DNA of 37,133 nt, from positions 1 through 37,133 of the IMG/VR virus record IMGVR_UViG_3300023179_005649; one strand, given 5' to 3'. Shown here piece after piece: positions 28,082 through 30,255 of this stretch. The position numbers and the translations under genes were made by a program. How positions within the stretch are numbered: position 1 is the stretch's first letter; every line of letters starts with the position of its first letter. The DNA comes from a virus. The notes below the pieces were generated by a model. It did no database searches and had not been told where the DNA came from. It saw only the letters and a program-made list of their open reading frames with translations.

Positions 28082-28290
28082 CGTGACCCCCACATCCACG
28101 CGGTTTTCTGCGCCGAGAGCCCGCGGATCAAATCGGCAACCTCGCGGGCCTTTTTCGCCTCGTCGCAGGTTTGCTGTGTTACGCCGGTGTCACGTTTTTT
28201 TTGTAAATCACTGTCACTTCGGCGATGGCAGTGGAGGGATTTGAACCCCCGAGCATTCAGAAAACTGTTGTTTTGTTTTATTAACTGCAT
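28078..28290 (-). CDS. First ORF of the early operon, crossing attP
   Basis: The 70-aa frame starts at ATG 28290 with AGGAG six bases upstream, one of the clearer ribosome sites in the genome. Its first third (NSFLNARGFKSLHCH) is simply the translation of the tRNA-like attP core. The rest (CDEAKKAREVADLIRGLSA) looks like a genuine helix. Integration at attP would cut this gene. It may therefore be a leader whose job is to couple early expression to the free phage state. Its stop overlaps the next gene (ATGA). Confidence 0.5.
   Translation of the reverse strand: MQLIKQNNSFLNARGFKSLHCHRRSDSDLQKKRDTGVTQQTCDEAKKAREVADLIRGLSAQKTAWMWGSR
28226..28270 (-). other. attP core: tRNA 3'-end-like sequence
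   Basis: On the minus strand, CGGGGGTTCAAATCCCTCC then ACTGCCA has a T-stem of five pairs (one G-U), the T-loop TTCAAAT and a seven-base acceptor 3' strand. There is no matching 5' half of a tRNA upstream. Phages that integrate into tRNA genes carry just such a 3' fragment to restore the gene, and this one is 72 bases from the integrase start. The exact crossover limits are unknown; the identity of the tRNA cannot be read. Confidence 0.75.
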
Positions 28291-28341
28291 CGATTTCTCC
28301 TATTTTTGTTGCGTTTTTGGGCGATTTGTTACGCTTGTATC

Positions 28342-29502
28342 ATGGCGTCGATTTTCACCCGCAACGACAGCCCGCACTATTGGCTGAGATTCAAATCCCC
28401 GCAGGGCGCGTGGAAGGCCAAGGCCACCACGTGGATGGCCGGCAATCCCCTTCACCGGGCCAAAGCCATCGAGGAGGCCGCCCGCATATCGGTCAACGAA
28501 AGGCGCCCCAAAATCAAAGACGACTGGATCCTGCCCTTTATCCTGTCCTACCAGGCCAACCTCAAAACCATCATTCACTACCGAAACTCCTGGCGCTGGC
28601 TGGAGCTTTACCTGGTCCACCGCGGCATCACGGCGGAACAGTTTTCCCCCGCTGAGGCCGAGGCCTACATCAGCTGGCGTACCCAGCCGACCCGCCGCGT
28701 CTCCGGCCGCGCCGTCCACCGCAACCAAGCCCTGCGGGACATCAAGATCATGAAATGGATCCACCGCCACGGCCGGCTCCTCGGCCACTGGCAGATGCGC
28801 GACCTGGACGACTACCGCCTCCGCTACGCCCCCAACAAGCGTATCAAGCCCCCCTTTACCGACGAGCAGATCGCCCGCACCCGCCAAGCCATGGCCTACA
28901 TGCCGCCGGCCCAGCAATGGATGCGCGTGGCCTTTGAAATCGGCCTGGCCACAGGATGCCGCCTGTCCGAAACCCAGATCCCCATGCACTGCATCGACCT
29001 GACGGCCGGCACCATCACCTTCCCCACACCCAAAGGCGGACCTGCCAAGGCCTTTACCATCCCCATTCCCAAAGCCCTGATCCCCATGCTGACCGCCATG
29101 AAAAAGGCCGGCCTGCGCCAGACCTGCACCCTGCCGCCCTGCGCCAGCCGGGAGTTCCGCGTGCTGTTTAATCGGCTGGGGCTGTATTTGCACTGCTTTC
29201 ATTCCCTAAGGGTTACCCGTGCATCAAACCTGCGCCGGGCAGGAGTGCCGTTAGGTGCGGCCATGCGGCTGCTAAATCACGGTTCAGAACTGATCCATGA
29301 GACTTACGTCCGGCACGACGTGGCCGATCTGCGGGCGTGGATTGATTTCGGGCAACCACCTCCCGCCGCCAACGGTCAAAATCCTCCGGCACCACGAGCC
29401 CCAACACGCTGGGAAAACCGTCCTGCCGGCTTATCGCCAACATCTTCCCGTAAGAATACCCGTATGCGGCCGCCAGCTCCCGCAGGTTCATCGCTTGGTT
29501 AA
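28342..29502 (+). CDS. int: Tyrosine integrase
   Basis: The 386-aa product is read from ATG 28342 (MASIFTRNDSPHYWLRF). It has an N-terminal arm and SAM-like core-binding region, then all catalytic residues: Arg207 in GCRLSE, His287 and Arg290 in HSLRVTR, His313 in LLNHGS and Tyr322 in HETYVRHD. It should recombine the attP at 28226-28270 with a host tRNA gene. The last 50 residues (after WIDFGQ) are Pro-rich filler and lie antisense to the excisionase-like gene. There is no Shine-Dalgarno before the ATG. Confidence 0.93.
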   Translation: MASIFTRNDSPHYWLRFKSPQGAWKAKATTWMAGNPLHRAKAIEEAARISVNERRPKIKDDWILPFILSYQANLKTIIHYRNSWRWLELYLVHRGITAEQFSPAEAEAYISWRTQPTRRVSGRAVHRNQALRDIKIMKWIHRHGRLLGHWQMRDLDDYRLRYAPNKRIKPPFTDEQIARTRQAMAYMPPAQQWMRVAFEIGLATGCRLSETQIPMHCIDLTAGTITFPTPKGGPAKAFTIPIPKALIPMLTAMKKAGLRQTCTLPPCASREFRVLFNRLGLYLHCFHSLRVTRASNLRRAGVPLGAAMRLLNHGSELIHETYVRHDVADLRAWIDFGQPPPAANGQNPPAPRAPTRWENRPAGLSPTSSRKNTRMRPPAPAGSSLG

Positions 29503-29548: not shown

Positions 29549-29706
29549 GGCGCGTCGTCAGCCTCCTGGATCAGCTGCGCAACAAGCTGAGACAAGCTCA
29601 GATTTTTTTTCTCCGCCAGCTCCCGGCCCAGCTTTTTAATGCGCACAGGCAGGTAAAGATTGGTGACCTCCGCGCCGTTGTTTTTCGAGGAGATTCCGCG
29701 TGGCAT
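29545..29706 (-). CDS. Ribbon-helix-helix repressor A
   Basis: This 53-aa protein (MPRGISSKNNGAEVTNLYLP) has the RHH layout: strand TNLYLP, helix KKLGRELAEK, turn, and helix LSLSQLVAQLIQEA. It pairs 18 of 36 aligned residues with the divergent protein at 29819-30028. RHH dimers bind operator inverted repeats through the strand. The ATG lies six bases after a predicted -10, so its mRNA is probably leaderless. It heads a two-gene operon with the excisionase-like gene. Confidence 0.75.
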   Translation of the reverse strand: MPRGISSKNNGAEVTNLYLPVRIKKLGRELAEKKNLSLSQLVAQLIQEADDAP

Positions 29707-29712
29707 GTGCGT

Positions 29713-29741
29713 GTCTTATGCGCATTAAATGCGTGCGTCAA
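29713..29741 (-). promoter_or_regulatory. Leftward promoter and operator of RHH gene A
   Basis: On the minus strand: TTGACG (29741-29736), a 17-bp spacer, and TAAGAC (29718-29713), ending six bases before ATG 29706. The spacer (29719-29735) holds an inverted repeat CGCAT-TAA-ATGCG at 29721-29733. The predicted start of transcription falls on the ATG. Confidence 0.65.
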
Positions 29742-29783
29742 TAAAAATCGTCATTTGTGATTAAACTTTTTTTATGCGCGGAA

Positions 29784-29812
29784 TTGACGTGCGTATTTAT
29801 TACGCATAAAGT
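29784..29812 (+). promoter_or_regulatory. Rightward promoter and operator of RHH gene B
   Basis: TTGACG (29784-29789), a 17-bp spacer and TAAAGT (29807-29812) end six bases before ATG 29819, exactly mirroring the leftward promoter. The spacer is itself a perfect palindrome, TGCGTA-TTTAT-TACGCA (29790-29806). Both genes share GCATAA-N4-CGCA-N-ATG at their starts. Confidence 0.7.
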
Positions 29813-29818
29813 GCGCAA

Positions 29819-30028
29819 ATGGCCAAGGAAGCCACCAACCTCACCCTGCCCCGCCCGGTAAAGACCAAGGGCATGGAGATGGCCAAAAGGGCGGGGATGA
29901 GCCTATCCACGTACGTGGCCCAGCTGATTCTTAAGGAGGCAGCCCGCGACAGGGGTTTTACCACAGAGAGCCCTGCGTTATATGTGGCCGGGCGGTCACA
30001 GGCAAAAACTAGGACAAAAAGGATATGA
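29819..30028 (+). CDS. Ribbon-helix-helix repressor B
   Basis: This 69-aa protein (MAKEATNLTLPRPVKTKGME) has strand TNLTLP and helices MEMAKRAG and SLSTYVAQLILKEAARD, an RHH fold like its divergent neighbour, plus a basic C-terminal tail (KTRTKRI). It has no Shine-Dalgarno and its ATG coincides with the predicted transcription start. It is coupled to the membrane protein gene at 30025 (ATGA). Confidence 0.75.
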   Translation: MAKEATNLTLPRPVKTKGMEMAKRAGMSLSTYVAQLILKEAARDRGFTTESPALYVAGRSQAKTRTKRI

Positions 30029-30255
30029 TTGCCGAGGCGGCCGAAGGAGCGTGGGCGTTGTTTTTCATGCCCATCCTGATCGGTCTAATCGTCCTAGCCT
30101 TTCTGGCCATCCTGATGCCCTACTACGTTTTTAAATGCCGACACCTCCTGCAGGATCTAAAGACCAAGGCGGATGAGCAAATCACCGAGACCAAGCGCAC
30201 CAATAACCTGCTGCGCCAGCTTATCCGGGCCTACGGCCACGAGCCTGATTCTTGA
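30025..30255 (+). CDS. Small membrane protein
   Basis: The 76-aa product has a membrane helix (FFMPILIGLIVLAFLAILMP) extending to YYVF near residues 13-36, then a charged cytoplasmic coiled-coil tail (KTKADEQITETKRTNNLLRQ). It is cotranscribed with RHH B, so it would be made in the same state (lysogenic or early). It could be an exclusion or signalling factor. The 3' end overlaps the convergent gene at 30221 by 35 bases. Confidence 0.65.
   Translation: MIAEAAEGAWALFFMPILIGLIVLAFLAILMPYYVFKCRHLLQDLKTKADEQITETKRTNNLLRQLIRAYGHEPDS

Follow-up and report, generated by a model that had tools for sequence, protein, structure and literature searches.

Divergent RHH genes with mirrored, predicted leaderless promoters in the probable lysogeny region of a temperate phage

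The locus and its genes

The window – the whole stretch of DNA analysed here – is a phage record 37,133 bases long, and the region under study comprises the 112 bp between two divergent ATG codons within it. On one side lies P0001 (29545–29706, minus strand), which encodes a 53-residue Arc-like ribbon-helix-helix (RHH) protein and is the first gene of a leftward unit; on the other, P0002 (29819–30028, plus strand) encodes a 69-residue RHH protein, a paralogue of P0001 with about 43% identity in alignment. Searches of GenBank phages with both DNA and protein gave no match to the region or to either RHH protein. IMG/VR contains nine loci with relatives of P0002 and eight with relatives of P0001, to which an alignment query added four more distant ones. 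These relatives are treated here as two groups: group A, comprising the window and L002–L009 (seven distinct promoter pairs), and group B, comprising L010/L027–L031 (five).

That both flanking genes encode RHH proteins, as the original prediction had it, is supported by a joint profile of 14 sequences, which in a comparison with the PDB matched the Arc repressor (1b28) at E 3.4e-4 and, weakly, two other RHH chains; together with two predicted helices, this places the proteins in the RHH family by sequence. Matches of single sequences to Pfam stayed under the cut-off, and those to Pfam and PHROG were weak yet of the same kind (RHH). In the structural model of P0002, the two RHH helices span residues 12–24 and 29–44 and are followed by a tail (56–69) of low confidence; the RHH strand is absent from this monomer model. 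Residues T6, N7, P11, K15, A22, S28, S30 and L36 of P0002 are invariant in 21 sequences.

P0002 is joined by an ATGA overlap to a variable cargo gene (30025–30255, plus strand), which here encodes a 76-residue membrane protein. In 9 of 12 loci, a gene starts no more than 4 nt from where P0002 ends, and the genes coupled in this way are of several unrelated kinds across the relatives, with an N-terminal membrane or signal segment; plausibly, they serve superinfection exclusion or lysogenic conversion. A type II toxin–antitoxin system with an RHH antitoxin was considered and rejected: the RHH genes are partnered by a gene for a winged-helix protein on one side and by genes for variable membrane or secreted proteins on the other, and no match to a toxin family was found among them.

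The 3′ end of P0002 itself (29954–30028) is conserved across loci as DNA (GGGTTTTA...GAGAGCCCTGC...AAAAACTAGGACAAAAAGGATATGA), with 64–93% identity at third codon positions, compared with 36–57% across most of the RHH portion. In L008 and L030, both of which are without a coupled downstream gene, the final stretch of this conserved end is altered; a search for an RNA element here gave no Rfam match and no covariation. Possible roles of the conserved end are as a junction at which the cargo slot recombines, or as an element of translation coupling.

Integrase, attachment site and excisionase candidate

Further to the left lies a tyrosine integrase gene (28342–29502, plus strand), with the PF00589 domain at 28858–29319; this domain scored over the cut-off in all 12 records tested. 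A minus-strand open reading frame at 28300–29202 was dropped as a gene, being the antisense of the integrase. The core of the attP site (28226–28252, minus strand), upstream of the integrase gene, corresponds to the 3′ terminus of a tRNA gene. Such a terminus lies upstream of the integrase gene in all 12 records, and at least three different ones are represented among them. The attP core is flanked by repeats of the TTACGC-TTGT type (28170–28340) that resemble integrase arm-binding sites.

Between the integrase and P0001 lies P0003 (29213–29548, minus strand), a gene for a winged-helix protein whose start overlaps the stop of P0001 and which is kept in 12 of 12 loci. Its wing–HTH core is modelled with pLDDT above 90. 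The fold matches of P0003 are weak – the best being to packaging-type HTH proteins, with the RdfS excisionase (Z 4.6) under the top matches, and MerR proteins as well – and Foldseek returned no match below E 0.001. The types of integrase, attP and P0003 co-vary between loci: L028 combines the types found in the window for each of the three with a group-B RHH switch. This co-inheritance provides the best evidence for P0003 as a directionality factor and, together with the fold type, makes it a candidate excisionase (Xis).

The 3′ part of the integrase gene shares about 290 bp (29213–29502) with P0003, which is encoded on the other strand; the integrase tail past its tyrosine region is read antisense to the P0003 winged helix, and similarly long overlaps are found in the relatives.

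Integrase and attP lie beside the RHH region in all 12 records. An integrase, an attP site at a tRNA end and an excisionase-type winged-helix protein alongside point to a region that controls lysogeny in a temperate phage.

Mirrored promoters

The original prediction placed a promoter of the form TTGACG-N17-hexamer on each strand, ending six bases before the respective ATG, and direct reading bears out this arrangement at the coordinates first given. In the plus promoter (29784–29818), the -35 element TTGACG (29784–29789) is followed by a 17-nt spacer (29790–29806), the hexamer TAAAGT (29807–29812), six bases and the ATG at 29819; in the minus promoter (29707–29741), TTGACG (29741–29736), the spacer (29735–29719), TAAGAC (29718–29713) and again six bases lead to the ATG at 29706. 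The motif GCATAA-N4-CGCA-N-ATG, said to be common to both starts, is likewise found at each of them. The two -35 elements are separated by an A/T-rich, UP-element-like centre (29742–29783), which contains a run of T.

As a -10 element, TAAGAC on the minus side is weak (3/6), and CATAAR, an alternative lying 15 bp from the -35 and 8 nt from the ATG, fits comparably well. With two near-equal choices, the predicted minus start is fixed only to within about 2 nt. The further point that neither start has a Shine–Dalgarno sequence turns out to be weak evidence: many genes of this phage are without one, and AAGG precedes the plus ATG in three close relatives (L003, L004 and L006), where it could serve a longer transcript.

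In an anchored mirror comparison, the 45 nt preceding each ATG are identical at 28 of 45 positions, a value that none of 20,000 dinucleotide shuffles reached (mean 11.4, maximum 26); TTGAC at both exact positions likewise occurred in none of the 20,000. An independent repeat search found mirrored arms of 39 nt with 74% complementarity. A plain promoter scan of this part of the phage showed no excess of promoter-like sites (5, against 6.8 in shuffles), so a single hexamer pair is not significant alone. Significance rests on the mirror symmetry and on its conservation, and the shuffles and the conservation together rule out a chance origin of the mirrored promoters.

Predicted operators

A palindrome had been proposed as an operator in each of the two spacers. 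The one on the minus side, CGCATTAAATGCG, is perfect; its plus-side counterpart, TGCGTATTTATTACGCA, had wrongly been described as perfect, and pairs at 7/8, with 6-bp arms and a T/T mismatch adjoining the centre.

When an operator matrix built from both promoters of group A was scanned over the whole phage, five sites scored 14 to 30 bits, all of them within 29706–29820; the window's own two sites went into the matrix, so their high scores arise partly by construction, which is not the case for the absence of sites elsewhere. The next-best match, at 12.0 bits, falls inside the range of shuffled sequence (usually 9–15, once 19). A role as a global regulator was rejected, no operator match elsewhere in the phage rising above shuffled sequence.

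The top-scoring site in the phage, predicted operator P-1 (29790–29806, plus strand; TGCGTA-TTTAT-TACGCA; 30.2 bits), occupies the plus spacer and is centred at -21 from the ATG. The second best, M-1 (29719–29735, minus strand; CACGCATTTAATGCGCA, core CGCATTTAATGCG; 27.0 bits), is also centred at -21, in the minus spacer. The sites reach past both spacers, with a second copy 11 bp downstream on each side that covers the -10: P-2 (29801–29817, plus strand; TACGCATAAAGTGCGCA; 16.6 bits, fourth best in the phage) and M-2 (29708–29724, minus strand; TGCGTGTCTTATGCGCA on the plus strand; 21.2 bits, third best) both lie over the -10 and the bases preceding the ATG. This second site is clearest in L002, where it forms a near-perfect 19-mer, TTACGCATAAAATGCGTAA.

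The predicted operators are in this way overlapping pairs 11 bp apart, and a TGCG or CGCA half-site occupies each of the spacer positions 1 (or 3), 14 and 25. To go by how Arc-type proteins are known to behave, the one-turn spacing would fit RHH dimers stacked on one face of the DNA.

Conservation among relatives

On the plus side, every group-A locus has TTGAC or a close variant as its -35, a 17-bp spacer and 6 nt to the ATG (7 in L004 and L006); on the minus side, a 17-bp spacer and exactly 6 nt are found in all seven distinct loci. In these seven loci, palindromes of 15–19 bp centred at about -21 from the ATG lie inside both promoters. On the plus side, the majority base is conserved at 0.93 in the -35, 0.98 in the first operator half, 0.76 in the operator centre, 0.92 in the second operator half and the start of the -10, and 0.61 in the last bases before the ATG; the value for comparison is 0.72, both at silent sites of the RHH codons and in the middle of the intergenic region. 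Judged by this comparison, the conserved parts are the -35, the operator half-sites and the distance from -35 to ATG. The T run is kept in group A, and the rest of 29742–29783 is conserved no better than silent codon positions.

This promoter geometry predicts leaderless starts in 7 distinct close loci. Were the spacer palindromes to serve promoters starting further upstream, the hexamers would be fortuitous and the transcripts leadered, for which the weak minus -10 and the AAGG before some plus ATGs might be cited. However, all close relatives keep the -35 and the spacing, and in the relatives compared the middle 36 nt contain no further conserved promoter-like sequence except the T run; leadered transcripts thus appear very improbable to us.

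Group B resembles group A on its plus side, where most of L010/L027–L031 show a similar geometry with TTGCGG/CATAAT-like elements, likewise predicting a start at the codon. L028 reads TTGCGG-N17-CATAAT-N7-GTG, and the other loci of the group carry variants; a related 17-bp palindrome is centred at -20 in L028 and L031. On the minus side of these five distant relatives, TTGACG is kept at 28–33 nt from the ATG, and no good -10 is seen at the corresponding place.

The likeness of the sites in the two promoters suggests that the two regulators may share their operators. Alternatively, the symmetry might be a relic of an inverted duplication of gene and promoter, which would have left two independent autoregulated promoters, with each RHH protein repressing its own gene only, and no switch. 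The clear paralogy and the mirrored upstream regions would suit such a history, as would a difference in the predicted DNA-facing strand residue, which in group A is Y in P0001 and T in P0002. Yet the operator halves of both promoters are alike across seven loci despite a protein identity of about 43%, and the location beside the integrase gene, attP and the excisionase candidate also speaks against independent autoregulation, which we regard as unlikely.

Host and bacterial counterparts

In a genome scan, the closest relatives of the phage terminase, 76–77% identical, were found on MAG contigs named as Verrucomicrobia UBA3063 and as a Proteobacteria bacterium. The contigs are short, so a host, possibly a member of the Verrucomicrobia, is only suggested. 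Shine–Dalgarno sites are reported to be scarce in some Verrucomicrobia (PMC10783764); if the host guess is right, the switch would be a compact test case for leaderless translation in such a setting. A genome scan with a mixed RHH alignment gave no match, and an RHH profile matched neither of the two terminase-bearing MAGs.

Divergent RHH pairs occur in 3 of 62 genomes of the order to which the UBA3063 MAG belongs. In the genome G020, a minus-strand RHH gene is followed by a gene for an HTH_17 protein and, further on, by RecT and a PDDEXK protein; an RHH gene reads rightward, and an integrase lies on the other side. This locus looks like one that shares the architecture of the phage, in an apparent prophage, and its gene order hints that the P0001 side is the lytic side. 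The promoters in G024 and G025 have 17-bp palindromes with another half-site (GACG...CGTC), and no phage genes lie nearby. Divergent RHH pairs were seen on bacterial contigs without nearby phage genes (L053:4395-4868, L054:5297-5446 and L045:1498-1719); in L054, the minus RHH gene is directly followed by an autotransporter-like gene encoding 1110 residues.

A proposed two-repressor switch

We consider it probable that the region is a lysogeny control region and acts as a cI/cro-like switch formed by two RHH paralogues with leaderless mRNAs, P0001 being the Cro-like and P0002 the CI-like partner. The proposal is built on what can be read directly from the DNA – geometry, conservation, paralogy, gene neighbourhood and the confinement of the sites to this region – and it predicts start sites, binding, cross-repression and polarity.

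According to this model, two divergent, near-symmetric promoters of the sigma-70 type would start at, or within about two bases of, the RHH start codons, and the resulting mRNAs of P0001 and P0002 would be leaderless. In each promoter, RHH dimers would bind the 17-bp site between the -35 and -10 elements, with its half-sites TGCG/CGCA, and would also occupy the second site, which is shifted downstream by 11 bp onto the -10 and the start codon; the bound protein would block RNA polymerase. Since the proteins are paralogues and sites of one kind are found in both promoters, mutual repression is probable: each protein would repress itself as well as the other, and the outcome would be a two-state switch. 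Its leftward state would yield P0001 and the linked P0003, and the prophage would excise, as expected if P0001 is Cro-like; in the rightward state, P0002 and the cargo would be made, with P0002 in a CI-like role.

The same region and the same control could also work with the roles reversed, P0001 being the prophage repressor, and P0002 and the cargo belonging to the infection or lytic phase (for example, to early host takeover or anti-defence). The variability of the cargo slot does match that of anti-defence loci, and P0001 is the more conserved protein, with a mean column identity of 88% versus 81% for P0002. Against this assignment, P0001 is joined to the excisionase candidate P0003, and in G020 the P0001 side reads towards RecT and a nuclease, as expected of a lytic-side gene; we find reversed roles rather unlikely.

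A more general proposal can be made, albeit tentatively. The phage may represent a family of temperate phages in which the main lysis–lysogeny decision is made by two mutually repressing Arc-like paralogues in place of HTH repressors, through leaderless promoters that mirror each other and carry operators at -21 and -10, in a module that is freely combined with exchangeable int–xis–attP cassettes and an equally exchangeable cargo gene. If true, this would be a very small and well-defined circuit with two states, consisting of 112 bp and two short proteins, of which nature provides a set of 12 distinct variants.

Comparison with known systems

Textbook phage switches employ HTH repressors and asymmetric promoters. 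A close parallel with RHH proteins is the immI region of P22, a secondary immunity region controlling an antirepressor, in which two RHH repressors, Arc and Mnt, are served by divergent promoters and the Arc operator lies between the -35 and -10 of Pant. Like immI, the present region encodes small putative repressors of the Arc-like RHH kind: P0001 is just as long as Arc, at 53 residues, and it is Arc (1b28) that the joint profile matches. Unlike in P22, the RHH pair adjoins the integrase gene, attP and the excisionase candidate, and it heads opposite units with near-identical promoters. No ant-like gene was recognised downstream of either RHH gene, most of the neighbouring genes being without a family match, and the genes scanned included none recognisable as encoding a cI-like repressor.

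In phage lambda, the rexAB cargo is linked to a lysogeny gene. The region shares with lambda cI/cro and rexAB the divergent repressors, the linkage of cargo to a lysogeny gene and a leaderless message, the roles of the proteins and the leaderless state being predicted here. Lambda differs in having HTH repressors, a three-part OR and activation of PRM, none of which was recognised in the phage.

The lambda cI message is leaderless, as cited in PMC4488713, a paper on the telomere phage PY54. In PY54, both the cI and the cro mRNAs were found by RACE to be leaderless, beginning with AUG (PMC4488713). Divergent repressor genes, putative in the phage described here, are common to it and PY54, as are leaderless mRNAs, which have been mapped in PY54 and are predicted in the present case. 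PY54, however, has HTH proteins of the lambda kind, a Cro bound to a single operator and a prophage in the form of a linear plasmid, in contrast to integration at a tRNA gene here.

Finally, the 55-residue RHH protein F55 of SSV1 holds a lysogeny-like state of this archaeal virus and binds an 11-nt sequence, several copies of which lie in promoters, including its own (PMC9608457). Both systems combine a small RHH protein with repeated short sites, predicted as operators here, in promoters that include its own. SSV1 nevertheless has a single RHH regulator, archaeal promoters and several dispersed target promoters, whereas here there are two paralogues, and the sites lie in one intergenic region. 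In a partial coverage of the literature, we found no report of a divergent RHH paralogue pair as a main switch. Leaderless cI/cro pairs and RHH lysogeny repressors are each known separately; their combination in one region appears to be new.
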